A stretch of 64,000 nucleotides of DNA from Novosphingobium sp. Chol11 (GTDB taxonomy: Bacteria; Pseudomonadota; Alphaproteobacteria; Sphingomonadales; Sphingomonadaceae): positions 1,470,623 to 1,534,622 of the forward strand of contig NZ_OBMU01000001.1 of NCBI RefSeq assembly GCF_900218065.1. Reading direction: 5' to 3'. Both the position numbers and the translations under genes were made by a program. Positions 35,148-64,000 of this stretch are shown one piece after another. Position 1 is the stretch's first letter. Each line of letters opens with the position of its first letter. Under the pieces are notes generated by a model that saw nothing but the letters and a program-made list of their open reading frames with translations, was not told the DNA's origin and searched no databases.

Positions 35148-36059
35148 ATGGCTGATAAAAGCAATGTCCCCGCGGTTCCAGCGCTGGGCGGTGAAGCCAG
35201 CCTCAACCGCTATCTGTCGGAAATCCGCAAGTTTCCGATTCTGACCCCTGAGCAGGAATATATGCTCGCCAAGCGTTATGCCGAGCATCAGGATCCTGAA
35301 GCGGCAGCGCAGCTGGTGACGTCGCACCTGCGTTTGGTGGCGAAGATCGCCATGGGCTATCGCGGCTATGGCTTGCCGGTCAGCGAGCTGATCAGCGAGG
35401 GCAATATCGGCCTGATGCAGGGTGTGAAGAAGTTCGAGCCGGAGCGTGGCTTCCGCTTGGCGACCTACGCCATGTGGTGGATCCGTGCCTCGATCCAGGA
35501 ATTCATCCTCCGCAGCTGGTCGCTCGTGAAAATGGGCACCACCGCGGCGCAGAAGAAGCTGTTCTTCAACCTTCGCCGGATGAAGAACAATATCGAAGCG
35601 TTCGAGGATGGTGACCTGCATCCCGATGACGTTCGCAAGATCGCGACCGACCTTGGCGTGACCGAGGAAGATGTGATCTCCATGAACCGCCGCATGGCGA
35701 TGGGCGGCGATACGTCGCTGAACGTCCCGATGCGCGAGGATGGCGAAGGGCAGTGGCAGGACTGGCTGGCTGACACCGACCCGTTGCAGGACGAGCGGGT
35801 TGCCGACGAGCAGGAAAAGACGCTGCGTCACGACATGCTTGTCGAGGCGATGGACGACCTGAATGATCGCGAAAAGCACATTCTGGCAGAGCGCCGCCTG
35901 GCCGAAGAGCCCAAGACGCTCGAGGAATTGAGCCAGGTCTATGGCGTATCCCGCGAGCGGGTGCGGCAGATCGAGGTGCGCGCTTTTGAAAAGCTGCAGA
36001 AGGCGATGATGCGCATCGCTGGCGACAGGATCGGCAAGATGCGGTTGGCGCTGGCCTGA
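35148..36059 (+). CDS. rpoH: RNA polymerase heat-shock sigma factor RpoH (sigma-32)
   Basis: 303 residues, a good ribosome-binding site (AAAGG) upstream. Region 2 includes ATYAMWWIRASIQEFILRSW; the RpoH box QKKLFFNLR is present, distinguishing it from housekeeping sigma factors; region 4 holds YGVSRERVRQIEVRAFEKLQ. Directs heat-shock transcription. A sigma-32-like promoter is visible upstream of clpP in this same window (40801-40829). Confidence 0.95.
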   Translation: MADKSNVPAVPALGGEASLNRYLSEIRKFPILTPEQEYMLAKRYAEHQDPEAAAQLVTSHLRLVAKIAMGYRGYGLPVSELISEGNIGLMQGVKKFEPERGFRLATYAMWWIRASIQEFILRSWSLVKMGTTAAQKKLFFNLRRMKNNIEAFEDGDLHPDDVRKIATDLGVTEEDVISMNRRMAMGGDTSLNVPMREDGEGQWQDWLADTDPLQDERVADEQEKTLRHDMLVEAMDDLNDREKHILAERRLAEEPKTLEELSQVYGVSRERVRQIEVRAFEKLQKAMMRIAGDRIGKMRLALA

Positions 36060-48728: not shown

Positions 48729-48805
48729 GCACCCATAGCTCAGCTGGATAGAGCGCTGCCCTCCGAAGGCAGAGGCCAGAGGTTCGAATCCTCTTGGGTG
48801 CGCCA
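48729..48805 (+). tRNA. tRNA-Arg(CCG)
   Basis: 77 bases including encoded CCA. Acceptor arms GCACCCA/TGGGTGC, D-arm GCTCAGCTGGATAGAGC, anticodon arm CTGCC-CTCCGAA-GGCAG with anticodon CCG, and T-loop GGTTCGAATCC. It marks the left edge of the accessory island. Confidence 0.96.
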
Positions 48806-48961: not shown

Positions 48962-48989
48962 TTGCCCCAACTCGGAAAATGGCTATTTT
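48962..48989 (+). promoter_or_regulatory. Candidate promoter of the Mza-like defence operon
   Basis: TTGCCC (48962-48967) and TATTTT (48984-48989) are 16 bases apart and 24 bases before the Phd-like start. GCTA/TAGC arms (48983-48993) overlap the -10 region and could be part of an operator. Confidence 0.35.
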
Positions 48990-49013
48990 AGCTACTCTTA
49001 GTTGGAGCGTGCC

Positions 49014-49211
49014 ATGAGAACGATGTCGGCGAAGGACGCGAAGAACAGCTTCGGGCTGCTCCTTGACTATGCCCGTGCCGCGCCCGTTCGGGTTGAGAAG
49101 CACGGCCGTGCGGTCGTCGTGGTCATCAGCGTCGAGGAGTTTGAGCGGCTGAACCAGTTGGAGATGGGTATCGGGAACGGCGATCGTGCCTCGGCGCCCT
49201 TGGCGTCATAA
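49014..49211 (+). CDS. Phd/YefM-type antitoxin without a toxin partner
   Basis: 65 residues from the ATG at 49014, GGAG 7 bases upstream. The sequence MSAKDAKNSFGLLLDYARA, EKHGRAVVVVISVEEFERL is the standard Phd fold N-terminal DNA-binding part. The last ~20 residues are short, so the toxin-neutralising tail is reduced. No RelE, Doc or PIN gene follows; a methyltransferase starts 6 bases downstream. It may autoregulate the defence operon instead of neutralising a toxin. Confidence 0.8.
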   Translation: MRTMSAKDAKNSFGLLLDYARAAPVRVEKHGRAVVVVISVEEFERLNQLEMGIGNGDRASAPLAS

Positions 49212-49217
49212 TCGGGG

Positions 49218-50843
49218 ATGTTCGTGAGGGGGGACGCGGAAACACTGCCAGCGATTCAACTTGGCGCGCTCCAGGATGCAGCTCCGGACGAAGCCGCCGA
49301 GCAGGACGCCTATCCGGTGATCGACCTGTTCGCCGGTCCGGGCGGGCTTGGCGAGGGCTTCGCGACCGCGTTCGATGGTGAGCAGCGGCGCCGCTTCCGC
49401 AGTGTGGTGTCAATCGAGCGCGATGCCTTTTCGCACGAGACGCTGCTGCTCAGGCATTTCTATCGTCACTTCCCGCTCGGCGAGGCTCCGGACGACTATT
49501 ATGAGTTTCTAGCCGGACAAATCTCCAAGGCTGAACTGTTCGATCGCCATCCCGCCGCCTATGCCCATGCTCGGCAGAGCGCCCTCCGAATTTCGTTGGG
49601 GAAGGAGTCGCACGCCGAGGTGCGCCAGATCATCCGGCAGCGCCTAGCAGGCAGCGATCACTGGGCGTTGGTGGGCGGACCACCCTGCCAAGCCTATTCG
49701 CTGGTCGGTCGCGCCCGGATGAAGGGTGATCCCGAGTTCGAACAAAACGAGAAGCACACCCTCTATCTTGAGTATCTCCAGATCATTGCGGATCACCGTC
49801 CGCCAATTTTTGTCATGGAGAATGTGAAGGGGCTGCTGTCGGCGACGATCGAAGGCAAGTCCACTATCACCCGGATTGTTCGCGACCTTCAGCGCCCTGC
49901 GACTGCCATCCCCGGCGCCCCCGCCGATCTCGGCTATCGACTCTATTCTCTCACCCAAGAGGAAATGGCTGAGGGCGAAGTCGACCCGCGTCTCTTCCTC
50001 GTGCGCGCCGAGGATCACGGCATCCCTCAGGCACGGCACCGGATGTTCATCGTCGGCATCCGCAGCGACCTGAAGGTTCGCCCCTCAACCCTCCGGAAGA
50101 TGACCGCGCCGACCGTGCGTGACACGATCGGCACGCTTCCGCCGATCCGGAGCGGACTATCGAAGGAAAAGGACAGCCGTGACGCATGGCTCTGCGCCAT
50201 CCGCCAGATTTCCAGCATGAACATCCGCCATCAGCTCAACGGGGCGGCTTATGCGGCTGATGTCGCGCGCGAACTGAAGTTCGACAAGCTCGTCGAAATG
50301 CGGTCGCCCCGCTTCAACTCCTCCAACCGCTATGCGATGCGGCGGCCGAACCATGACGTCCTGCGCAGCCTTTATGACGACCGGCTGCCGGTGCTGACCG
50401 CGCACGAGGCGCGCAGCCACATGGCATCCGACCTGCGCCGCTACTTCTACGCGGCGACCTTCGCCGCCACGACCGGACACAGCCCCAAGCTCGCCGACTT
50501 TCCGGTGGGGCTCCTTCCCGATCACCAGAATGTCGAGGAGGGGCGCGCGGGGAAGATGTTCTCCGACCGCTTCCGCGTGCAGCTCGCCGATCATGTGTCG
50601 ACGACCGTCACCTCCCACATCTCGAAGGACGGCCACTACTTCATCCACTATGACCCGTCGCAGTGCCGGAGCCTGACAGTCCGCGAGGCGGCGCGGCTCC
50701 AGACCTTTCCCGACAACTACTTCTTCGCGGGGCCGCGCACGGCGCAGTATCACCAAGTGGGCAACGCCGTCCCGCCTCGCCTCGCCACCCAGATCGCCGC
50801 GATTGTCGCTGAGGTTCTCGACTCCATCCGGAGCGGGCAATGA
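49218..50843 (+). CDS. C5-cytosine DNA methyltransferase
   Basis: 541 residues. Conserved motifs in order: I VIDLFAGPGGLGEGF (about 34-48), IV GGPPCQAYSLVGR with the catalytic Cys, VI FVMENVKGLL, VIII QARHRMFIVG, and X YHQVGNAVPPRLA near the C-terminus. The stretch between motifs VIII and X, the target-recognition region, is long (over 200 residues). Modifies cytosine in an unknown target; in this operon it probably marks self DNA. The ribosome-binding site is weak; overlap ATGA with the Vsr gene. Confidence 0.92.
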   Translation: MFVRGDAETLPAIQLGALQDAAPDEAAEQDAYPVIDLFAGPGGLGEGFATAFDGEQRRRFRSVVSIERDAFSHETLLLRHFYRHFPLGEAPDDYYEFLAGQISKAELFDRHPAAYAHARQSALRISLGKESHAEVRQIIRQRLAGSDHWALVGGPPCQAYSLVGRARMKGDPEFEQNEKHTLYLEYLQIIADHRPPIFVMENVKGLLSATIEGKSTITRIVRDLQRPATAIPGAPADLGYRLYSLTQEEMAEGEVDPRLFLVRAEDHGIPQARHRMFIVGIRSDLKVRPSTLRKMTAPTVRDTIGTLPPIRSGLSKEKDSRDAWLCAIRQISSMNIRHQLNGAAYAADVARELKFDKLVEMRSPRFNSSNRYAMRRPNHDVLRSLYDDRLPVLTAHEARSHMASDLRRYFYAATFAATTGHSPKLADFPVGLLPDHQNVEEGRAGKMFSDRFRVQLADHVSTTVTSHISKDGHYFIHYDPSQCRSLTVREAARLQTFPDNYFFAGPRTAQYHQVGNAVPPRLATQIAAIVAEVLDSIRSGQ

Positions 50844-51262
50844 TGGTTGACACAATCACCAGCGAACGACGGAGCTGGAACATGTCGCGCATCCGCGGAC
50901 GCGACACCAGCCCCGAGCTGCGCTTGCGCTCGCTTCTGCACCGTGCCGGTTTCCGCTTCCGGCTTCACGCGAAGAAGCTGCCGGGGCGGCCGGACATCGT
51001 TCTGCCGCGATACCGGACCGCGATCTTTGTCCACGGCTGTTTTTGGCACCGTCATTCCGGCTGCCGGAATGCGACCACCCCCTCGACCCGCGCCGAGTTC
51101 TGGCAGGAAAAATTCGACACCAATGTGCGTCGCGACGCCCGCAACCGGGCTGATCTGGAGGCGGCAAGCTGGACCGTGATGACCGTGTGGGAGTGCGAGC
51201 TGAAGGCGGACGCCGAAGGAGTTGTCCGGCGCCTCGCGGGCGAGCTGCGCCGGAAGGACTGA
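50840..51262 (+). CDS. Very short patch repair-like endonuclease (Vsr)
   Basis: 140 residues. Vsr hallmarks: RRSWNMSRIRGRDTSPELRLRSLLHRAG at the N-terminus, LPGRPDIVLPRYRTAIFVHGCFWHRH (catalytic Asp, zinc-site residues), and TVMTVWECEL. Classical Vsr nicks T:G mismatches arising from 5-methylcytosine deamination. Next to a cytosine methyltransferase it may repair or act as the restriction nuclease of the operon. Overlaps neighbours by 4 bp and 1 bp. Confidence 0.92.
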   Translation: MMVDTITSERRSWNMSRIRGRDTSPELRLRSLLHRAGFRFRLHAKKLPGRPDIVLPRYRTAIFVHGCFWHRHSGCRNATTPSTRAEFWQEKFDTNVRRDARNRADLEAASWTVMTVWECELKADAEGVVRRLAGELRRKD

Positions 51263-52740
51263 TGGCGAGGCCCCATCATCTTCCGCCCAGTGCGGCAAGT
51301 CTCACGGCGTCGCTCCGCGATCTCGGCTATTCGCTCGAAACCGCGATTGCCGACCTGATCGACAACAGCATCTCGGCCGACGCGACTGACATCCAGATAT
51401 TCTGCGATCTGAGCCGTGCCGCGCCGGTGCTGGTCATCGCCGATAACGGGCGCGGCATGACCGAGGCCGAAGTGATCGCTGCCATGCGGCATGGCGCGAC
51501 CGACCCGCGGAAGAAGCGCGGACCGAAGGATCTCGGACGCTTCGGATTGGGGCTGAAAACCGCGTCCTTCTCCCAGTGCCGCCGGCTTACCGTCGCCAGC
51601 ACGCAGCGTGGCGAACGATCGGGCGCGGAGTGGAACCTGGCGCAAGTTGAGGATGAGGACGACTGGTTCATCGCTGTCCTCGACCAGGAGGAGATCGCCG
51701 CGCAGCCCTTCTTCGATACGCTGGGCGAAACCGGTACGCTGGTCATCTGGCGCGACCTCGACCGGCTGTTCGAGGACGAAACCGGCCAGAAGCGTGACGA
51801 GATCGTCAACGAGAAGCTCGCCGTGGTTGAGCGGCACCTGTCGCTCGTGTTCCACCGCTTCCTCGCCGGCGAGGTGAAAGGCAGGAAAAGGCTGGCGATC
51901 CGGATCAACGGCCACCCAGTCGCGCCCTTCGATCCGTTCTGCCGGAAGAACGCCGCGACCCAGATGCTTCCCGAGGAAACCGTCTGGGTCGACGACGTGG
52001 CGGTCGTGATGCAGCCCTACATCCTGCCGCACCACAGCCGCCTCACGGCGTCGGAATATGACTTCTACCAGGACCGAAGCGACTTCATCTCGAACCAAGG
52101 CGCCTACGTCTACCGCAACGGCCGCCTGATGGCCTGGGGCGATTGGTTTCGGCTGGTGCCCAAGGGCGAAGCCACCAAGCTCGCCCGTGTCCAGATCGAT
52201 TTCCCGAACAGCCTTGACGAAGCCTGGACCATCGATATCAAAAAGTCGCGCGCCCGGCCGCCGCATGCCGTGCGGGAGCGCCTGCGCCAGATCATCAGCC
52301 AGATCACCGCCCGCAGCGTCACCGTGCATCGCGGTCGCGGCCAGAAGCTGTTCCAAGAAAGCCAGGCCCCGCTCTGGGAGCGCTACGCCGATCACGGCGG
52401 CATCCGGTTCGCGATCAACGCGGAGCACCCACTGATCGCGTCTCTCGGCGCACGGCTGTCTGCCGCCGATGCCGCCTCCCTGCGCGTGCTGCTCGATTCG
52501 ATCGCCGCCGCCCTGCCAGTCGAGATGATCTATTCCGACTATTCGACGCACCCGCGCGAGGTGAGCCAGGCGACCGTGGATCAGGAGCAGACGATGGATC
52601 GGCTGAAAAGCCTCAAACAGGTGCTCTACGGCGACGGGCCGGGCGACCCGAAGACCTTCCTCCAGATCGTGCGATCGACGCGCCTTTTCGACGGGCAGAT
52701 CGAGACGGCCGAGAAATTCATCGCAGAGGCTTTCGCATGA
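51262..52740 (+). CDS. GHKL ATPase of MutL/MORC type (Mza-like component)
   Basis: 492 residues from the ATG at 51262. GHKL motifs: SLETAIADLIDNSISADA (N box), VLVIADNGRGM (G1), RFGLGLKTASFSQCRRL (G2). The C-terminal half continues with an S5-like fold region and no zinc-finger CW domain is seen. Prokaryotic MORC/MutL-like ATPases were described in restriction-modification neighbourhoods with Z1 helicases, and one is a defining part of the Mza system. One-base overlap with Vsr, 4-bp with Z1. Confidence 0.88.
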   Translation: MARPHHLPPSAASLTASLRDLGYSLETAIADLIDNSISADATDIQIFCDLSRAAPVLVIADNGRGMTEAEVIAAMRHGATDPRKKRGPKDLGRFGLGLKTASFSQCRRLTVASTQRGERSGAEWNLAQVEDEDDWFIAVLDQEEIAAQPFFDTLGETGTLVIWRDLDRLFEDETGQKRDEIVNEKLAVVERHLSLVFHRFLAGEVKGRKRLAIRINGHPVAPFDPFCRKNAATQMLPEETVWVDDVAVVMQPYILPHHSRLTASEYDFYQDRSDFISNQGAYVYRNGRLMAWGDWFRLVPKGEATKLARVQIDFPNSLDEAWTIDIKKSRARPPHAVRERLRQIISQITARSVTVHRGRGQKLFQESQAPLWERYADHGGIRFAINAEHPLIASLGARLSAADAASLRVLLDSIAAALPVEMIYSDYSTHPREVSQATVDQEQTMDRLKSLKQVLYGDGPGDPKTFLQIVRSTRLFDGQIETAEKFIAEAFA

Positions 52741-55397
52741 CCGCGACGATCATCACGGAAGAACGAAACATCGCGAACGCGCTGATCTCGGGTCTCGCCA
52801 ACCTGACCGAGACGCCGACGCGCGAGCAGGTGGAGGAGAAGGCCAAGCAGATCGCCGCCATCTTCGGTTACACCGGCGACCTCCGCAACATCATCACCGA
52901 AGCGATGATCTCGGTCGACACGCGCATGGGCGCCGGCGTTTCGCTGGTTGATGTCGCGGCGAAGCATGACGATCAGTGGGTCCGCAAGCGCGAGGACATC
53001 ACCTGGACCTATTCCGGCGCCTACGAGAACTTTCTGCTGAAGGACGGCTGGTCGCCTCGCCTGGTCCAATCGCTGAGCGACGTGACAAGCCGCATCCTGG
53101 GGCATCTCCAAGACCCGATCAGCGAAGGGACGACCTGGAACCGCCGCGGACTGGTCATTGGCCACGTCCAGTCCGGCAAGACCGCCAACTATACCGGCTT
53201 GATCGCCCGCGCCGCCGATGCCGGATACAAGTTCATCATCGTCATCGCTGGCATTCACAACAATCTGCGCAAGCAGACCCAGGAGCGCATCGACGAAGCT
53301 TTTATCGGGCGGTCCAGCGATCCCGAGGATCGCCGGTCTATCGGTGTCGGACTCGACCCCGGCTATCCCCACCCGGCGACGCTCACCAACATCAACGAGG
53401 ACTTCAACAAGAACACCGCGGCGAAGAGCGGCTGGAAGATCAACGATTTCTCCAAGCCGATCATCCTCATCATCAAGAAGAACGTCACGACGCTGACGGC
53501 GCTGCACAAATGGCTGAAGGCGCTGAACGCCGAGGGCGATGGCCGGATTTCCGATGTGCCGATGCTGCTCATCGACGACGAGGCCGACAACGCCTCGATC
53601 AACACCAACAAGGAGGATCTCGACCCGACGCGCACCAACGCCATGATCCGGCGCATCCTGGGGCTGTTCGCGAAATCCTGCTATGTCGGCTACACGGCGA
53701 CGCCGTTCGCCAACATCTTCATCAATCCCGACGCCTATGACGATGACGTGCGCGAGGAGCTGTTCCCGCGCGACTTTATCTACTGCCTCGACGCGCCGAC
53801 GACCTATTTCGGCGCGGAGAAGGTGTTCCTCGACGATAAGACCAGCCAGTCGATCGTGAAGCCGATCGACGACTGCGAGGACTTTCTTCCCTACCGGCAC
53901 AAGCGCGACGACCCCGTGCCGGAGCTGCCACCCAGCCTCTACCGCGCGCTGGACGAGTTCATCGTCGCGCGCGCCATCCGCAACCTGCGCGGGCAGACAG
54001 GCAAGCACTGCTCGATGATGATCAATGTGTCGCGTTTCGTGCCGGTGCAGCAGGCCGTGCGCGACTTCCTCAGCCTTCGCGAGAAGGCGATGCGCGAGGC
54101 GGTCCGCGTGAACTATCTCATGCCGGAATCCGTCTCCTCGACGAACATCCACATGCAGCGCCTGAAACAGGCGTTCGACGCCGAATATGCCGATGCTGGA
54201 TTCACTTGGCCCGAGGTCAAGGCGGCGCTCAACAGCGTGTTCGACCACCTCCACCTCTACGTCATCAACAGCAAGAGCGACGAGGTGCTGGATTTCACGC
54301 GGTACGAGAAGGAGGGCGTCGGCCTCACCGCGATCGCGGTCGGCGGTCTCAGCCTGTCTCGCGGCCTGACCATCGAGGGTCTGACCGTCAGCTATATGTA
54401 TCGCAACACCAAGATGTACGACACGCTCATGCAGATGGGCCGCTGGTTCGGCTACCGGCCGGGCTTCGAGGACCTCTGCCGCGTTCATCTCTCACGCGAC
54501 TCCATCAACTGGTATTCCCATATCGCCGAGGCCGCCGAGGAACTGACGCAGCAGGTCAAGCGGATGCGCCGTGACGGTCTCAGCCCGAAGGATTTCGGCC
54601 TGTATGTCCGCTCGCACCCGGACAGCCTGCTGATCACCGCCACCAATAAGATGCGGTCCGGTCAGGAAGTGACGGTTGAGCAGAGTTTCAGCGGGCGGCT
54701 GCGGGAGAGCTACGTCGTCTCGACCGACCCGGACGTGAATGCCCGAAATTTCGACCTGATCGCGGAGCAATGGCGCGGCGGCTTCGGCGGGCGGCCGGAG
54801 GAGGACACCGGAAAGGGCCTGATCTTCCGCGACGTCCCGATCGCGGTGGTGGAGGATTTCCTCACCCGGTTCGAGTGCCACTCGACCTTCGCCGGCATCA
54901 AGTCGGACGTGGTGACCTATCTTGAACGGATCGCGGAAAAGCGTCCGCTCACCGACGTGCTGCTGATCTCGCCCGGAGGGACACCGGGCGCCAGCGGGCC
55001 ATTCACCCTGAACAACCAGGTGCGCGTCGTCGGCAAAGGTCAGCCTGACGGAACCGCTTGGCGGCTGAACAAGGATCGTGTCGCCTCCCGCGGCGACGAG
55101 AAGCTCGGGCTCGACGATGCGCAGCGCAAGGAGGCGGAGGCGCTGGCCGGCGGCGAGGACGGAACCGGCGCGGTGTCCGACACACATTACCGGATGGTCC
55201 GGAACAGGCCGCTGCTCATGATCCACAGCCTCGAACCTAGGGATGGTGCTGTGGCAGGGCCGATCGCCGCTTTCGGCGTGAGCTTTCCATACGGGGACTA
55301 TTCGACCACCATCAACGTCGTCGTGAACAAGGTCTGGCTCCAGCAGATGCAGGGCTATGGCGACGATCCGGACGAGGAGGAGGACTACGATGTCTGA
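52737..55397 (+). CDS. Z1-domain superfamily II helicase-like ATPase
   Basis: 886 residues. Walker A in GHVQSGKTANYTGLIARAAD (about residue 142) and motif II in MLLIDDEADNASINTN; motif III-like YVGYTATPFANIF; later GGLSLSRGLTIEGLTVSYMYR and QMGRWFGYRPGFEDLCRV correspond to motifs V-VI. This arrangement defines the Z1 group. Likely translocates on DNA, coupled to the GHKL ATPase and the nucleases of the operon. Confidence 0.9.
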   Translation: MTATIITEERNIANALISGLANLTETPTREQVEEKAKQIAAIFGYTGDLRNIITEAMISVDTRMGAGVSLVDVAAKHDDQWVRKREDITWTYSGAYENFLLKDGWSPRLVQSLSDVTSRILGHLQDPISEGTTWNRRGLVIGHVQSGKTANYTGLIARAADAGYKFIIVIAGIHNNLRKQTQERIDEAFIGRSSDPEDRRSIGVGLDPGYPHPATLTNINEDFNKNTAAKSGWKINDFSKPIILIIKKNVTTLTALHKWLKALNAEGDGRISDVPMLLIDDEADNASINTNKEDLDPTRTNAMIRRILGLFAKSCYVGYTATPFANIFINPDAYDDDVREELFPRDFIYCLDAPTTYFGAEKVFLDDKTSQSIVKPIDDCEDFLPYRHKRDDPVPELPPSLYRALDEFIVARAIRNLRGQTGKHCSMMINVSRFVPVQQAVRDFLSLREKAMREAVRVNYLMPESVSSTNIHMQRLKQAFDAEYADAGFTWPEVKAALNSVFDHLHLYVINSKSDEVLDFTRYEKEGVGLTAIAVGGLSLSRGLTIEGLTVSYMYRNTKMYDTLMQMGRWFGYRPGFEDLCRVHLSRDSINWYSHIAEAAEELTQQVKRMRRDGLSPKDFGLYVRSHPDSLLITATNKMRSGQEVTVEQSFSGRLRESYVVSTDPDVNARNFDLIAEQWRGGFGGRPEEDTGKGLIFRDVPIAVVEDFLTRFECHSTFAGIKSDVVTYLERIAEKRPLTDVLLISPGGTPGASGPFTLNNQVRVVGKGQPDGTAWRLNKDRVASRGDEKLGLDDAQRKEAEALAGGEDGTGAVSDTHYRMVRNRPLLMIHSLEPRDGAVAGPIAAFGVSFPYGDYSTTINVVVNKVWLQQMQGYGDDPDEEEDYDV

Positions 55398-56355
55398 GTC
55401 CTCACCCTGGGATGACATCGCCGTCCCCGGCGCGGACTTCAACGTCCGCCAGGTGCCGGGCGAAACCGCCGTGCCCTGCTTCTGGGGACGGGACACGACC
55501 GGCGCCTGCCTGTTCATTGTCGAGCTGGGGGGCGACCACACCGATCCGTTCCGGAAGAATGTGGTCACGGTGCATGGGATCGACGTCGATCTTCGCGGGG
55601 GCGAGTCGGGGCGGCAACGCCTTGTCCTGACCCTCGAAAAGCAGGTCGATCGAGATCTTTTCGAGGGCCTCTGCCGGACCCTCGCATCCGCGCTGGAGCG
55701 CGCCACCGATTCCGCCAGCTCGCTCGCCGTCGCACTGGCGCATATCCGACGGTGGAAGACCTTTTTGTCCGGCCGCAGCCAGCACTTGTCGGCCGAGGAG
55801 GTCCGCGGCCTTTTTGCCGAACTCACCTTCCTGCTGGAGCTGATCGAGCAGCAGCCATCGTCCGCCGTCGCCGTCGAAGCCTGGCTCGGCCCGGAGAAAT
55901 CCCACCAGGATTTCATTTTCGGCAACACGGCGGTAGAGATCAAATCGCTGTCCGGCACCGAGCGCAGCACGGTGCGCATTTCGTCGGAGGACCAGCTTGA
56001 GTCCCTCAACGATGCGCTGTTTCTTCGCATCTACCGATTGAGCAGTCTGCCGGACGCGGCGAGCGCGCAATCGCTTAACGGGCTCATCGCCGCGGTGCAG
56101 GCGCGGCTAGGCGAGGCGGAGGCCGTCGAAGCCTTCGACCGCAAGCTGGTGACACACGGCTATGCCCCGCTTCCCGACTATGACGCGCCGCGCTTCGTCG
56201 TCAGCGACGTGCATAGCTATCGCGTCGGCGACCGATTCCCGCGCCTCATGCGGTCGCAACTGCCGACCGGCATCGACAGGGTCGCCTACGATATCCGTCT
56301 GGAAACCATTGCGCCCTACGAATGCGACAATGGGGGAGTCTTCGGGGGGAGCTGA
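55390..56355 (+). CDS. PD-(D/E)XK motif protein (DUF4420)
   Basis: 321 residues from the ATG at 55390 (8-bp overlap with Z1). The nuclease signature is readable: Glu in VRGLFAELTFLLEL, Asp in SHQDFIFGNTAVEIKS and the EIK lysine. DUF4420 proteins of this kind are a fixed part of Mza-type clusters. Probably the cleaving component. One-base overlap with the AIPR gene. Confidence 0.88.
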   Translation: MSESSPWDDIAVPGADFNVRQVPGETAVPCFWGRDTTGACLFIVELGGDHTDPFRKNVVTVHGIDVDLRGGESGRQRLVLTLEKQVDRDLFEGLCRTLASALERATDSASSLAVALAHIRRWKTFLSGRSQHLSAEEVRGLFAELTFLLELIEQQPSSAVAVEAWLGPEKSHQDFIFGNTAVEIKSLSGTERSTVRISSEDQLESLNDALFLRIYRLSSLPDAASAQSLNGLIAAVQARLGEAEAVEAFDRKLVTHGYAPLPDYDAPRFVVSDVHSYRVGDRFPRLMRSQLPTGIDRVAYDIRLETIAPYECDNGGVFGGS

Positions 56356-58409
56356 TGGAACAGACCGTAGAGGAGTTCTTCCACGACTTCCGCCAGGAAA
56401 CGCTGGCCGATGCCGAGGCGAACAGCACCTACCAGCTTGAAGCGTTCATGGAGGCGGTCTCCACCGAGCTGATCGAGACCGGCTTCATCGAAGGGTTCGA
56501 GCACTGCCACTACCGCGCGCCGCGAGGCATGCGCGTCGACGGCTACTGGTTCAACGACGAGGGTGCGCTCGACGTCTTCGTCGCCGACTTCGATTGCCGG
56601 CGCGAACTGGAGACGCTCACGGGCACCGACGTGGGCGCCACCTTCAAGCGCGTCGTCAACTTCTTCGAGGCGAGCCTCCAGGGAACGCTGGAACCTGATG
56701 TCACCACGCCCGAATACGGGCTGGTCCGGCAGATCGCCGACCGGCGTGCGATGCTTCGCCAGGTCAGTTTCTACCTCACTTCCGAGCGGGTGCTGAGCGA
56801 CCGTTTTCAGGGGTTTCCCGATGGTGAGGTGGGTGGCATCCGCGCCACCTACCATATCTGGGATATGGCGCGGTTCCAGCGTCAGCGCAGCTCGCGCGGG
56901 CACAAGGAGCCGCTCGACATCGATTTCGTCGAGATGTTCGGCAACGGCATCAACTGCCTCCCGGCGAATCTCGGCTCCGACTCTTATCAGTCCTACCTGA
57001 TCGTCATGCCGGCTCCGATCCTGGCCGCGCTCTACGACCGCTACAGCGCGCGCCTGCTGGAGCAGAACGTCCGGACCTTCCTCCAAGCCCGCGCGCAGGT
57101 GAACAAGGGCATCCGCGCGACCATCATGAACGAGCCGCAGATGTTCTTCGCCTATAACAACGGCATCACTGCGACGGCCCAGGAGGTCGAGACGCGGATG
57201 ACCGAAAGCGGTCTCCAGATCGTCCGCATGACCGATCTCCAGATCGTGAACGGCGGCCAGACGACCGCCTCGCTGTTCCATACCCAGCGCCGCGACAAGG
57301 CGGACCTGTCGGGCATCTTCGTTCAGATGAAGCTGTCTGTGATCGACAGCGAGCAGAGCGAGATGGTCGTCCCCCGCATCTCGGAATATGCGAACACGCA
57401 GAACCGGGTGAACGCGGCCGACTTCTTCTCCAACCATCCCTTCCACGTCCGCATGGCCGAATTCTCGCGCCGCATCTGGGCGCCAGCCCAGCAGGGCGCG
57501 CAGCGCGAGACGAAGTGGTTCTACGAGCGGGCGCGCGGCCAGTATGTCGACGCGCAGTCGAAGCTCACCGCCGCCGAGCAGAAGCGGTTCCGGGCGGAAT
57601 ATCCCAAAACGCAGATGGTCACGAAAACCGACCTCGCCAAGTTCGAGAACGTCTTCGACGATCACCCGCGCTGGGTGAACCTCGGCAGTCAGAAGAACTT
57701 CGCCCGCTACGCGCTGCGGATCGGGAAGGAATGGGAGAAGTCGTCCGACGGCTTCAACGAGTTCTATTTCAAGCGCGCCATCGCCCGCGGCATCCTGTTC
57801 CGCGCGGTCGAGAAGCTGGTCTCGGCGCAGCCTTGGTACAACGGCGGTTATCGGGCCAACATCGTTGCCTACACGCTCTCCATGCTGGGCGAGGTCACGA
57901 AGCGCCGGAAGACTACCGTTGATTATCAGCGCATCTGGTCCGCCCAGGCGATCGATGATGTGTTGTCAGAGGCGCTGGCGACTATCGCGACGGCCGTGAA
58001 CGAGGACATCACCCGACCTCCGCAGGGTATCTCCAACATCTCCGAATGGTGCAAGCGGGAGGGGTGCTGGACGAGACTGCTCGACCAGGCCGACCATATC
58101 GCCGACCTGCTGCCGGAGGACTTCTGGGCTGCGCTCGCCTCAGCCGACGACAACCGGCACGAAGCCAAGACCGCGCGACAGACGCAGAAAATCGACAACG
58201 GGATCGAGGTGCAGCGGCAGGTCTTCGATGTGCCGCCAGCGCAATGGTCGACGATCCTGCGCGAAGGCTCAAGCCGCCGGCTGCTGACGCCGAAGGAAAT
58301 GGGCATCCTCCAGATCGCGGCGCAGATGCCCGCGAAAATTCCGACGGAGCGGCAGAGCGCCATATTGATCGAGATTCTCGGCAAGGCTCAGCAGGAAGGC
58401 ATCGTGTAG
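56355..58409 (+). CDS. AIPR-family abortive infection phage resistance protein
   Basis: 684 residues from the ATG at 56355, with a GGGGGGAG ribosome-binding site. The AIPR core is seen in NEPQMFFAYNNGITATAQ, LQIVNGGQTTASLF, ISEYANTQNRVNAADFFSNHPFH and WFYERARGQY. AIPR proteins are linked to abortive infection and occur at the end of Mza operons. N-terminal ~200 residues are helical without a recognised domain. Its TAG is followed at once by the GTG of the HNH gene. Confidence 0.9.
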   Translation: MEQTVEEFFHDFRQETLADAEANSTYQLEAFMEAVSTELIETGFIEGFEHCHYRAPRGMRVDGYWFNDEGALDVFVADFDCRRELETLTGTDVGATFKRVVNFFEASLQGTLEPDVTTPEYGLVRQIADRRAMLRQVSFYLTSERVLSDRFQGFPDGEVGGIRATYHIWDMARFQRQRSSRGHKEPLDIDFVEMFGNGINCLPANLGSDSYQSYLIVMPAPILAALYDRYSARLLEQNVRTFLQARAQVNKGIRATIMNEPQMFFAYNNGITATAQEVETRMTESGLQIVRMTDLQIVNGGQTTASLFHTQRRDKADLSGIFVQMKLSVIDSEQSEMVVPRISEYANTQNRVNAADFFSNHPFHVRMAEFSRRIWAPAQQGAQRETKWFYERARGQYVDAQSKLTAAEQKRFRAEYPKTQMVTKTDLAKFENVFDDHPRWVNLGSQKNFARYALRIGKEWEKSSDGFNEFYFKRAIARGILFRAVEKLVSAQPWYNGGYRANIVAYTLSMLGEVTKRRKTTVDYQRIWSAQAIDDVLSEALATIATAVNEDITRPPQGISNISEWCKREGCWTRLLDQADHIADLLPEDFWAALASADDNRHEAKTARQTQKIDNGIEVQRQVFDVPPAQWSTILREGSSRRLLTPKEMGILQIAAQMPAKIPTERQSAILIEILGKAQQEGIV

Positions 58410-59282
58410 GTGCAGACGCTCAAAGTGCCCAAGAAGAAAACCGGCAGGAAGGCGCCGAGTACGGAGACGCTGCGCCGGTTGTTTGCGCTCTCGGGCAACC
58501 AATGTGCGAAACCGGGCTGCCCGACAGTCCTCCTATCGGCCAATGGCACACTGGTCGGCGAAGTTGCTCACATCGCGGCCGAAAGCGCTGGCGGTCCGCG
58601 CTTCGATCCCAAGCTCAATGAAGCGGACCGGCGTGCGTTCGAAAACCTTCTCCTGCTTTGCTCCACCTGCCACACGCTGGTCGACAAGGAGCCCGCGACC
58701 TACACGAAGAAAATTTTGCGCAAGTGGAAGCGCCATCGGGAGGCGCGTTTCGAGGCAGTCGGCGACATGCTTCGCAAGTCCTATCTCAACGAAATAACCG
58801 ACGATGCCGACGTGGCCGGAGCGACCCTCCCGCAGACCTTGAAAGGCTACGTCCGATTCCTGGTCGATCAGGACGAGGAGCCCTTCATTGATGGTGATAC
58901 TCCTGGGGAAGTGGCGGCTTACGCGGAGAAGCTGCGCCATCTGGCGGTGGCGGATCGTCAGCTTATGCTCGCCATCATTGAAAAGGCTATGGTGCTTGGT
59001 GGGAGGCGGGAAACCGAACACGGCGTTTCGATTCATCCTGACGACCTCAAAACGATCAGGATCAACAACAGCCGGCTGTCCGACTACCGGATCGATAAGC
59101 TCGGGAAAACGCTCGGTCGCAATGGGCTTGGCTCTCTCGATGTTGATGACGGCGAGCCGAACCTATGCATCTCATCCATGCATATCGACATGGGCTGGTC
59201 CACGTTGAGCACCTTCCTTGAAAGCAAGGGCGCCACAATCGGCAGCCTTCTTATCGATTTGAAGTTCGGACTGCTCGACTAG
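58410..59282 (+). CDS. HNH endonuclease-domain protein appended to the operon
   Basis: 290 residues with a GTG start directly after the AIPR stop. Residues about 25-90 form an HNH module with cysteine pairs: GNQCAKPGC, VGEVAHIAAE, and NLLLLCSTCHTLVDK. The remaining ~190 residues are not recognised. Zero spacing implies translational coupling with AIPR. It ends 4 bp into the HerA gene of the opposing operon. Likely an additional effector or a passenger of the island. Confidence 0.82.
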   Translation: MQTLKVPKKKTGRKAPSTETLRRLFALSGNQCAKPGCPTVLLSANGTLVGEVAHIAAESAGGPRFDPKLNEADRRAFENLLLLCSTCHTLVDKEPATYTKKILRKWKRHREARFEAVGDMLRKSYLNEITDDADVAGATLPQTLKGYVRFLVDQDEEPFIDGDTPGEVAAYAEKLRHLAVADRQLMLAIIEKAMVLGGRRETEHGVSIHPDDLKTIRINNSRLSDYRIDKLGKTLGRNGLGSLDVDDGEPNLCISSMHIDMGWSTLSTFLESKGATIGSLLIDLKFGLLD

Positions 59283-61273
59283 GCGCCCCAAGCCTCGATC
59301 ACATGCGCCAATGGGAAGGGATTCTGCTCCTTCCGCCATTCATGATAAGGTGCGGCCGTCTGGCTATATGGACCGGGCTCCGGTCGATCGAACTGCACGC
59401 GCGTCGGAATATGGAAGGCGCTGCCGAAAACGATTGCCTCGCCTGACGACAGAATCGTCACCTGATCGAGCAGCCGTCTTGCTTGCATCGGAATGATGCG
59501 CCGGAAGTGGTCAATGTCGTCAGGGTTTTGCAGGCGGTGGCTGATGAAGTTGGCGCATTGGCTGATGATGGTCTGACTGATCTCGCTCGGCCGCTGGCTG
59601 GCGATGATGAGCGAAAGGCCGAATTTGCGGCCCTCCTTGGCAATCCGCTCGTATGTCAACCGTGCTAGGCGATGACCGCGATCCTCATCGGAGCGGGCGG
59701 GACGCGCATAGTTGTGCGCCTCTTCCAGAACGAGCACCCAGGGATGCTTGTAGCGTGAGGCCGCGGGCAGGCGCTCACGCGCCTCCAGCAGCACCCGCCC
59801 GATCACCGCACACGCATAGGGGAGAACTTCGTTGCTCAGCATCGACAGGTCGAGCACCGAGACTTTCGGTCCAGTTGCAGCGCCAAGCCCGAAGCGCGCG
59901 AACCATGAGGACAGCTTGTCGATCTTCGTATCGGCCTCCTCATAGTTGAGGAAGGAGCGCCATCGCTTGTCGTCGAGGCGGGTTTTCAGCCGCAGCTTCA
60001 ACGTCGTCAGATGGGCATCGACGCGGAACGTATCCTCCTTGGACACGGCACGATTGATGAGGGACGGATCGGTCAGGGTTGCGCGGGCAATTGGTAGAGG
60101 CGAGTCAGCCGTGCGCGCGCCTGCTTCCGTTGTTTCGCTTCCGCTGACAATCAGCGCGCGGATGGCGTCTTTGAGTTTGTTCCCCTCTGTCGAAATCGCG
60201 GCCTGATTAGCCATTACATCCTGATTATACTGATCGACAGCGCGGTGAGTGGCAAAGAGTGCTTCAAACGCCGCCGTGTCGATATCCGTATCCGCAAGGT
60301 GTCCTACAATGGCGTCACAATAGGAACCGGCAAACTTTCGCTTCACCTTTGTAAGTTCGCTTAGCAGCTGATCTAGCGCGCTCATCGCGTTTTGAAGCAC
60401 GCTCATGCTTGCAGCAGCCATCTCATCGCCGCCTTTGGCGATTGCCCACCAATCCTTGAGCACCGGCTCCTGCGTCTGTTCCGATGCGCTCAGCCACGCA
60501 CAGATTTCCTCCGCGTTCAGAAACCAGAGGGGGAGGCCGAATTCCTTCCCATTGAGGTAGATGCGATCGGGCAGCCGCTGCTCGGCGCCAGCCGACGGAA
60601 AGGCTTTGGCATATTCGCCATTGATGTCGAGGATGAAGACGTGCGGCTCCTCGGCGGCACTATCAAGGGCCGCCATCGCCTTCTGGATCAGGCTCGACAC
60701 CGAGAAGGATTTTCCCGAGCCGGTATTGCCGACGATCGCTAGGGGCCGCGAGAAGAGGTCGTTATATGAGGCGCGGACGACATTCCGGTCCTGGCCGGTC
60801 GGGTATCCGATCTTCAGGTCGCAATCGAAGTCCTTCGCGTCATAGCCTTCTGGCTTGTTGCGCCGGGGTGGTATCTCGAACACCGAGCGAAGGATGTCCG
60901 GCGATCCAATTTCCGCGGGCGTGTCGAGTGTCGGCAGGACCGAAATGCCCGGACTGAAGGCGGGCTCGTCATCCTTATGCTCGATCGTTCCCAGCAATTG
61001 GACGCTCGCGACACGACGCGGTTTCATCAGTTCGAGGTTGAGATCGTCTCCGCTGCCGGGATCGAAGGTCTCGCGAGCTTCTAGATCGGTGATGATGCCG
61101 ATGACGGTTTCCCCCGCACCGAGCGAGAAGGTCAGATAGGCGTTGATTGCGATGGCCGCCTGCACGCCGTCTAGCGTGGCGCGCAGCGCCGACCGAGTTT
61201 CGGGTAGCAATTCGACCTTCACCCGGAAGCCCTGGACCGACACGATGTGCCCGACGAGGCGAGGATTATCCAT
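59279..61273 (-). CDS. HerA-type ATPase/helicase (SIR2-HerA system)
   Basis: 664 residues. HerA N-terminal barrel-like segment (residues ~1-120), Walker A VGNTGSGKSFSVSSLIQ, Walker B HPWVLVLEEAHNYARP, and the sensor/Arg-finger area SLIIASQRPSEISQTIISQC. HerA forms hexamers; in the SIR2-HerA defence system it assembles with the NADase. Its ATG overlaps the SIR2 gene stop by 8 bp. Confidence 0.9.
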   Translation of the reverse strand: MDNPRLVGHIVSVQGFRVKVELLPETRSALRATLDGVQAAIAINAYLTFSLGAGETVIGIITDLEARETFDPGSGDDLNLELMKPRRVASVQLLGTIEHKDDEPAFSPGISVLPTLDTPAEIGSPDILRSVFEIPPRRNKPEGYDAKDFDCDLKIGYPTGQDRNVVRASYNDLFSRPLAIVGNTGSGKSFSVSSLIQKAMAALDSAAEEPHVFILDINGEYAKAFPSAGAEQRLPDRIYLNGKEFGLPLWFLNAEEICAWLSASEQTQEPVLKDWWAIAKGGDEMAAASMSVLQNAMSALDQLLSELTKVKRKFAGSYCDAIVGHLADTDIDTAAFEALFATHRAVDQYNQDVMANQAAISTEGNKLKDAIRALIVSGSETTEAGARTADSPLPIARATLTDPSLINRAVSKEDTFRVDAHLTTLKLRLKTRLDDKRWRSFLNYEEADTKIDKLSSWFARFGLGAATGPKVSVLDLSMLSNEVLPYACAVIGRVLLEARERLPAASRYKHPWVLVLEEAHNYARPARSDEDRGHRLARLTYERIAKEGRKFGLSLIIASQRPSEISQTIISQCANFISHRLQNPDDIDHFRRIIPMQARRLLDQVTILSSGEAIVFGSAFHIPTRVQFDRPEPGPYSQTAAPYHEWRKEQNPFPLAHVIEAWGA

Positions 61274-62663
61274 CCGCGCCCTCCGTGTCCGCTTCGGCTG
61301 ATGGCGCGGACGAAGCGATCTGCTTTTCGAAGCGGCGTAAGCGTAGGAAGTCGTCGAGCCACTGCACGTCGGGCATCACCGTTCGCGCAAAGTCGTCGAA
61401 GGTCGCGTGCTTGAATGGTGTTGCTGAGAAGGAATCCGTCGTCGGACATAGGACGAATGCGCGCTTACCGAGATCCTTGTATCGCCGGATGCGTGCGATC
61501 ACCGGACTGTTCGGATTTGGTTCGACCACCAGCATCACAAGCGACGGATTCATCAGAGCATTCTCGATGATCCGGCTGACATGATCGTCGCCGAAGCCAT
61601 AGCCCAGCACGAGGAGGAAGGTCTGGGGGATGCCGAGCCGCACCTGAAAGGACCGGAAGAGGTGAGCGTAGGGCATCGCAAGCGTCTGAGCGAATTTGTT
61701 CGCGGTCGGCAGAATCCCGACCGAAGGCGTCCCTCCGACCAGAGACCGAAGCGACGCGGCTTTCTGCTCGGCCGTCATGGCGGCATAGGTCTGAAAAGGC
61801 ATCAGGTCAGGATGACGCGCGCGCATCTCATTGCCGTGCTCGAACCAGTGGATCGAGCCGTGGAGCTTGTAGAAATGCAGGAACTTGTCGAAGCGCCGCA
61901 CACGACCCTCCGCCACCTCGCCCGGATAGTAGATGTCCAAACCATAGACGGAAGGGTCGAATCGGGCGGCCGCGCGGCCGGTGAAACCGTCGAAATACTG
62001 GACGCCGAGCAGTTCCAATGCTTGCTCGAACAGCGTGTCGTAATTGAGCGTGAAGAGATGGGTGCGTCCGAGGTTGCTATCGCGCGCCACGAGTTTGGAC
62101 AGAAATGCAAGATGCGGAGCGATGCCATCAGCGGACGCGGCCAGCCCCGTATCGGGGAGCGAAAGCGCGCACTCGGCGAAAATCGCCATGCGAAGGTGAT
62201 CGACGAACCAACGCAGATCGGCAGCGCTGGGCGCTGGCGTGCTGGGCCACGTCACGGAGGAGAATGGTCCGCCTGTTGAATCCGCGACGACCAGAGCATT
62301 GGCGACGAACGAAAGCCATGCCTCGAAACCGATCGGGTCATCATCGTCGAAGGCGGCGAGAAGGACAGCGTTCTTGCGGGCTTCGATGATGGGAGCGACC
62401 GAGGCGGGGATGTCGGGCAGCGCCCCGATCGTGGCGAATACAGCCGTTTCGAGATTGGCCATTGTCTTGCCGCCGGCTGAAACCGACGTGCCCGATCCCG
62501 TCAGAACGACGAGATTCTCCATCCGTAGCCATTCCGATATGAGCGCTTGAAGACGGACGCGCCCCTGCTTTTGATCGAAGTCTGCCAGCAGATTCCCGAT
62601 GCCGCCGTCTTCGGCAAGGCCGATGAGCTGATATTCGCTAGGCCCCGGCGGCACTGTCGTCAT
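61266..62663 (-). CDS. SIR2-domain protein of the SIR2-HerA defence system
   Basis: 465 residues from the ATG at 62663 with GGGGAG upstream. SIR2-type NAD-binding features: LVVLTGSGTSVSAGG near residue 50, FTLNYDTLFEQALE and YKLHGSIHWFEHG (catalytic His), with no zinc cysteines, as in defence-type NADases. Depletion of NAD on phage sensing is the described outcome of such pairs. Located downstream of a toxin-antitoxin pair. Confidence 0.9.
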   Translation of the reverse strand: MTTVPPGPSEYQLIGLAEDGGIGNLLADFDQKQGRVRLQALISEWLRMENLVVLTGSGTSVSAGGKTMANLETAVFATIGALPDIPASVAPIIEARKNAVLLAAFDDDDPIGFEAWLSFVANALVVADSTGGPFSSVTWPSTPAPSAADLRWFVDHLRMAIFAECALSLPDTGLAASADGIAPHLAFLSKLVARDSNLGRTHLFTLNYDTLFEQALELLGVQYFDGFTGRAAARFDPSVYGLDIYYPGEVAEGRVRRFDKFLHFYKLHGSIHWFEHGNEMRARHPDLMPFQTYAAMTAEQKAASLRSLVGGTPSVGILPTANKFAQTLAMPYAHLFRSFQVRLGIPQTFLLVLGYGFGDDHVSRIIENALMNPSLVMLVVEPNPNSPVIARIRRYKDLGKRAFVLCPTTDSFSATPFKHATFDDFARTVMPDVQWLDDFLRLRRFEKQIASSAPSAEADTEGADG

Positions 62664-62732
62664 AAATCTCCCCCCTAATGTCACCACGCTTACGAGCTGA
62701 TGATCTGAACCTTTTCAGTTCGGTCAGTATCG

Positions 62733-63125
62733 TCAGCCAGCCCCAGCGACCGCTTTCGGCTTCGCCCGACGCTTCGTGGCAATCTTGCCGGACCTAGTTG
62801 CTGCGCCGGGAACGACGTCACCCAAACGCTCGATCCGCAGCGGAGCCCTCGAAGGCAACCGCACGATCAGATCGAGCTGCCCGCCAACGGCCTCGACGTA
62901 GCTCCTGAGCGTCGATAGATACATGTCGGCTTGCTTCTCGATCTTGGACACTGAGGGCTGCTTGACGTTGAGGGCCGACGCGATCTCGACCTGGGCCTTG
63001 CCAGCGACGCGGCGCAATTCGCTCAGGCTCTCCACCTGCTCCTTCAGCTCCTGCGCGCGCGCCTCGACACGGGCGCGGCGCGCTTCGGGGAGCGCGGCAA
63101 CGACATCATCCAGATTCCGGCCCAT
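62733..63125 (-). CDS. XRE/HigA-like antitoxin
   Basis: 130 residues from the ATG at 63125. Helical N-terminus, then the HTH: SELRRVAGKAQVEIASALNVKQPSVSKIEKQADMYLSTLRSYVEAVGG. The C-terminus is a lysine/arginine-rich tail. Overlaps the toxin stop (TGATG), so the pair is translationally coupled with toxin first, as in HigBA. Probably represses its own promoter at the palindrome 63497-63516. Confidence 0.88.
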   Translation of the reverse strand: MGRNLDDVVAALPEARRARVEARAQELKEQVESLSELRRVAGKAQVEIASALNVKQPSVSKIEKQADMYLSTLRSYVEAVGGQLDLIVRLPSRAPLRIERLGDVVPGAATRSGKIATKRRAKPKAVAGAG

Positions 63126-63496
63126 CACTTCTTTCCCTTCTTCGCGGCCGCCAGTCGATCAAGGTGGCCCTGAAAACGCTTGTCCGCCTTTGCGATGAGC
63201 GTCCTATAGAAACGCTTTTCACTCCCGCCGGACTTGTCGCCCGCTACCAGCAGGATCGCTTTTCGTTCGGGATCGAACGCGAAGGCTACCCGCCACACAC
63301 CGTCATCGGCCTCGAACCGCAATTCCTTCATGTTCGCAAACGACGAAGCGTTCAGCGTGTCCGCGTGCGGTCTGCTCAGTTGCGGACCGAACGTGGCGAG
63401 GAGCTTGGCCGATGCGAGCAGCTCGTCCTGCACAGCTTCCGGCAATTCCTCAAACTCCGCATCGAACTCCTCGCCGAAGGCGACTTTCCATTCCAT
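63125..63496 (-). CDS. RelE/HigB-like toxin
   Basis: 123 residues, TTGGAGG 7 bases upstream. RelE-fold features: FDAEFEELPEAVQDELLASAKLL, NMKELRFEADDGVWRVAFAFDPERKAILLVAGDKSG and FYRTLIAKADKRF. The FxxxKxxxxxLI pattern of HigB/RelE families fits a ribosome-associated mRNA interferase. First gene of the minus-strand run toxin-antitoxin-SIR2-HerA. Confidence 0.9.
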   Translation of the reverse strand: MEWKVAFGEEFDAEFEELPEAVQDELLASAKLLATFGPQLSRPHADTLNASSFANMKELRFEADDGVWRVAFAFDPERKAILLVAGDKSGGSEKRFYRTLIAKADKRFQGHLDRLAAAKKGKK

Positions 63497-63516: not shown

Positions 63517-64000
63517 CGTCAAGATTGGCCTACCGGGCGCTGATCCATTCACCGCCGGCTGAGCAACCCTTCGGGAGAGGATGAGCAAAGATGGACGGGC
63601 GACAGCTCCGCCCTTGATCTTTTCGGCCCGATACGACCTATAGAGGGAGTATCCCCCGGTGGTCCCTGCTCTGCATACCGCCGGGGCACTTTATTTCTAG
63701 CCACAGCCCAGAGCCTTCGCAACGCGCTTCCAGCGTGCGGATCATGCTGTTTCCGTCTTCGTCCCATACGCTTTGAGGGGGAAAGCCTTCCCCTGCCGTC
63801 GAGCCCCTGACGGGTCTCGCCGGACCCCTTCGAGCGGGGACACCCCGCAACGTCCCAGATAGCACGCGGGATCTAGGGAGCGCACACTGGCGGCTGAAGC
63901 CGCGCAGGGGTCGCGCGTTTTTATCCGCCCGCGTTCGCACACTTGCTCTGGCCGGAGGGCGCGGCGGCGGCTGGCCCCCAGGCCCGCCGCCGCGCCGGCC
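63517..64000. other. Island region without a supported gene
   Basis: Open frames here are arginine/glycine/proline-rich and overlap GC-rich repeats, so I call no gene. The 3' part holds a strong inverted repeat (63958-63996). The island presumably continues beyond the window. Confidence 0.5.
63958..63996. repeat. GC-rich inverted repeat
   Basis: GGCGCGGCGGCGG (63958-63970) and CCGCCGCCGCGCC (63984-63996) are perfect 13-bp complements around a 13-base loop. No T-run follows; function unknown. Confidence 0.6.

Follow-up and report, generated by a model that had tools for sequence, protein, structure and literature searches.

We analyzed a window of 64,000 nucleotides (nt) from Novosphingobium sp. 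Chol11 (assembly GCF_900218065.1, contig NZ_OBMU01000001.1, positions 1,470,623 to 1,534,622). At positions 49014-59282 of its forward strand lies an array of eight genes, of which six, from a cytosine methylase gene to an AIPR gene, make up a conserved restriction-type operon of a known kind. A Phd gene stands optionally in front of this operon, and a gene for an HNH nuclease-like protein adjoins it behind. Judged from sequence, the six genes likely form an anti-phage restriction system.

Composition of the gene array

The array was as compact as the preliminary description of this DNA had claimed: all eight genes lie on one strand, with no internal stop in any reading frame. The first two are 6 bp apart, the next five junctions overlap by 4, 1, 4, 8, and 1 bp, and the last two genes abut (0 bp). 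Pfam matches named seven of the eight proteins, the exception being the HNH-like protein.

Features of the window at and around the gene array (positions are those of the window)
Feature	Position	Strand	Remarks
tRNA-Arg (CCG)	48729..48805	+	ARAGORN
Palindrome TAGCTA-NNN-TAGCTA	48980..48994		34 nt before Phd start; one mismatch in this copy; predicted operator (likely)
Phd/YefM-type antitoxin-like protein	49014..49211	+	PF02604, 39.3 bits (cut-off 29.8)
C5 cytosine DNA methyltransferase	49218..50843	+	PF00145; TIGR00675, 143 (cut-off 100.65)
Vsr mismatch endonuclease	50840..51262	+	TIGR00632, 139.6 (cut-off 97.85)
GHKL ATPase, MORC/MutL-like	51262..52740	+	HATPase_c_3
Z1 gene	52737..55397	+	Fifth in array; named as in the preliminary description
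DUF4420 protein, predicted PD-(D/E)XK nuclease	55390..56355	+	PF14390, 206.6 bits
AIPR protein	56355..58409	+	
HNH nuclease-like protein, winged-helix-like tail	58410..59282	+	Adjoining gene, outside the unit
HerA-SIR2 pair, convergent	59279-62687	-	PADLOC models, 1276 and 873 bits
Small gene pair matching HTH_37 and Gp49	62733-63496	-	

Residue conservation was counted over 53 sequences per protein. The catalytic C157 of the methylase was kept in all 53, as were D52, H70, and D99 of Vsr, a protein that also passed its family model above cut-off and whose best solved chain was 1cw0 (E 2e-32). The nearest solved chains for the GHKL protein were MORC2/3/4 (E 4e-4 to 1e-3), with MutL at 0.0096; its sequence GAYVYRNGRLM matches the MORC signature GhXhhpXXRhl at 10 of 11 positions by eye, and both arginines were kept in 53/53. 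The superfamily II ATPase motif DThhQXuRhFG is present as DTLMQMGRWFG, with D562, Q566, and R569 kept in 53/53 and T563 in 52/53. In the DUF4420 protein, E143, D173, E182, and K184 (first Met not counted) occurred in 53/53 and fit the E-D-ExK pattern of the restriction endonuclease (RE) fold, and we regard this protein as the likeliest cutter. The model of the AIPR protein has a nuclease-like fold at its N-terminus and a middle part that is weakly ParB-like.

The Phd and HNH genes at the borders of the operon

The preliminary description had also proposed that all eight genes form one system. The methylase and Vsr front end does belong to it, but the eight families were not seen together in the neighborhood comparison: of 80 loci, 10 have the Phd gene adjoining the methylase gene (one more match, in L061, lies far away), and the HNH gene at the operon end is absent from the searched relatives. 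The eight-gene unit was therefore rejected.

The window holds no toxin gene next to the Phd gene, and the Phd protein is likely an optional regulator that would control the operon. The palindrome, with up to two mismatches, occurs 34 to 50 nt before the Phd start in 7 of 11 copies (90 nt of upstream region each), as against 17 matches in the 1,557,153 bases scanned. The motif was defined after the alignment had been viewed, which tells against this reading, and the Phd copies are related, so control of the operon by Phd is a lead.

The HNH protein is a neighbor and not part of the unit. Over the first 120 residues it is similar to HNH effector nucleases in PADLOC and to solved Cap5 chains. Relatives were found in 8 of 199 genomes of the family and 14 of 385 of the class (own genome included in both), as well as in one further genus (36 of 195 genomes), most of these matches being limited to the N-terminal part. 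On plasmids, 180 records were found, each below 60% identity, and the viral contigs gave no match. The closest relatives of the HNH protein are P0001 to P0006 (73-93%).

Two other placements of the HNH gene were weighed. An eight-gene system with three nucleases, in which Vsr and the HNH protein are among the attackers, is in keeping with the 0-bp junction, which makes it likely that the AIPR and HNH genes are co-transcribed, with the similarity of the HNH part to Cap5 nucleases of the cyclic-oligonucleotide-based antiphage signaling system (CBASS), and with the presence of defense-like genes directly behind the AIPR gene at other loci too; given the distributions of the Phd and HNH genes, we nonetheless consider it very unlikely. 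It is likewise improbable that the HNH gene partners the convergent HerA-SIR2 pair and not the methylase operon. The HNH and HerA genes do overlap tail to tail by 4 bp, and the best class-level HNH relative (35%, residues 8-290) has a SIR2 gene (486 bits) 2.5 kb away (L128, 1224-2456 and 4992-5816), past which is a gene that is HerA-like by eye only. However, the pair here is on the strand opposite to the HNH gene, and neither SIR2 nor HerA is annotated in the vicinity of three plasmid relatives, although most neighbors there are unnamed.

The PDC-S36 candidate defense family was observed behind the AIPR gene in L033 (15714-16445, 59 bits) and L048 (15753-16499, 50 bits). The recurrence of one family in two loci suggests that this slot may favor certain partners.

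Proposed function of the six-gene operon

We infer the following mechanism with moderate confidence. The methylase would mark the host's own DNA, the Vsr-type repair enzyme would help to maintain that marking, and the four remaining proteins would destroy DNA without the mark. A less likely alternative is that the methylase is an idle passenger beside the core. Methylase and core evolve only loosely together (r 0.53-0.63), the methylase-Vsr cassette is exchanged, and, in the 2020 work of Gao, the related Mza core reportedly functions with no methylase gene in the operon. Yet a methylase match was found in 44 of 44 loci, an odd pattern if the methylase were only a passenger.

Several observations weigh against the proposed mechanism. 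Besides the loose correlation, none of the 40-residue windows of the core varies closely with the type of methylase (best partial r 0.34); a core that reads the methylase sites would be expected to do so. Vsr is missing in eight loci and is probably dispensable; the repair argument rests on five of these, because in the other three (L050, L066, and L077) the methylase matches are only weak, and in the five, Vsr was judged at the locus and may be present elsewhere in the genome.

The exchangeable methylase-Vsr cassette is the point of greatest interest: if one core does take different methylases, its means of discriminating self from foreign would be unusual among restriction systems. The comparison points testing at six genes and not eight, Vsr being probably dispensable and the HNH gene merely adjoining.

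Genomic setting and relation to known systems

The last 48 bases of the tRNA-Arg gene (48758-48805) are repeated directly (98%) 56 kb on, at G000:C10:1575782-1575829, and are likely the left attachment site of an integrative element. Between the repeats are genes for a relaxase-like protein, a coupling protein, and trb/virB-type transfer proteins, with two tyrosine integrases near the far end. Hence, the operon is likely carried as cargo by a ~56-kb integrative conjugative element, ~41 kb of which lies beyond the window. In that outer part, two reading frames (G000:C10:1562175-1566753, minus strand) resemble parts of a resistance-nodulation-division (RND) type efflux pump by eye.

Short stretches (79 to 131 bp) that match window positions 63612-63856 occur in three relatives, at 0.2, 8.1, and 8.5 kb past the same tRNA gene. 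The place behind the tRNA (48806 to ~63600) holds other defense genes or almost nothing in these loci (L123, L124, and L125): AbiEi, AbiEii, and a HamB helicase lie between tRNA and matching stretch in L125, and a kinase and an LmuB-like piece in L123. The place is thus likely an exchange site for defense genes. In the window, the HerA-SIR2 pair is likely a separate defense system, and the HTH_37/Gp49 pair is by type likely a HigB-HigA toxin-antitoxin pair.

Mza, reportedly described by Gao and colleagues in 2020, is said to consist of mzaABCDE. An identity of Mza type, as first suggested for the array, did not hold up: the matches fell far below the NCBIfam equivalog cut-offs (MzaB 322/850, MzaC 507/1500, MzaD 132/420, and MzaE 337/1050 bits), methylase and Vsr are extra here, and the operon has no sigma factor MzaA. 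In this genome, the MzaA model gave three matches, of which the closest, ~13 kb upstream (window 35298-36002), is a sigma-70 gene; the model is unspecific, with matches in 10 of 14 control genomes.

No biochemical account of this operon kind was found in the open-access literature searched, subscription papers being mostly outside the search. From genome context, the kind is already known since 2008 and 2022. CglI and NgoAVII differ in that their nuclease is a PLD-B3 protein, and they are described as three-gene systems without GHKL, AIPR, or DUF4420 proteins (PMC4267653). Miller and colleagues (2022; PMC9523054), whose putative defense system type II is a further counterpart, tie DNA repair endonucleases to type I, whereas Vsr and AIPR occur together here. 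Another of the closest counterparts is the third type of MORC/paraMORC restriction operon (Iyer, Abhiman, and Aravind, 2008; PMC2292703). The word antitoxin does not occur in the main text of that paper, the passages compared mention no Phd-type gene, and HNH is tied there to other operon types; the paper names AIPR as common in such operons, and its third type shares with the present operon the superfamily II ATPase motif, the E-D-ExK RE-fold protein, the GHKL ATPase, the cytosine methylase, and Vsr.
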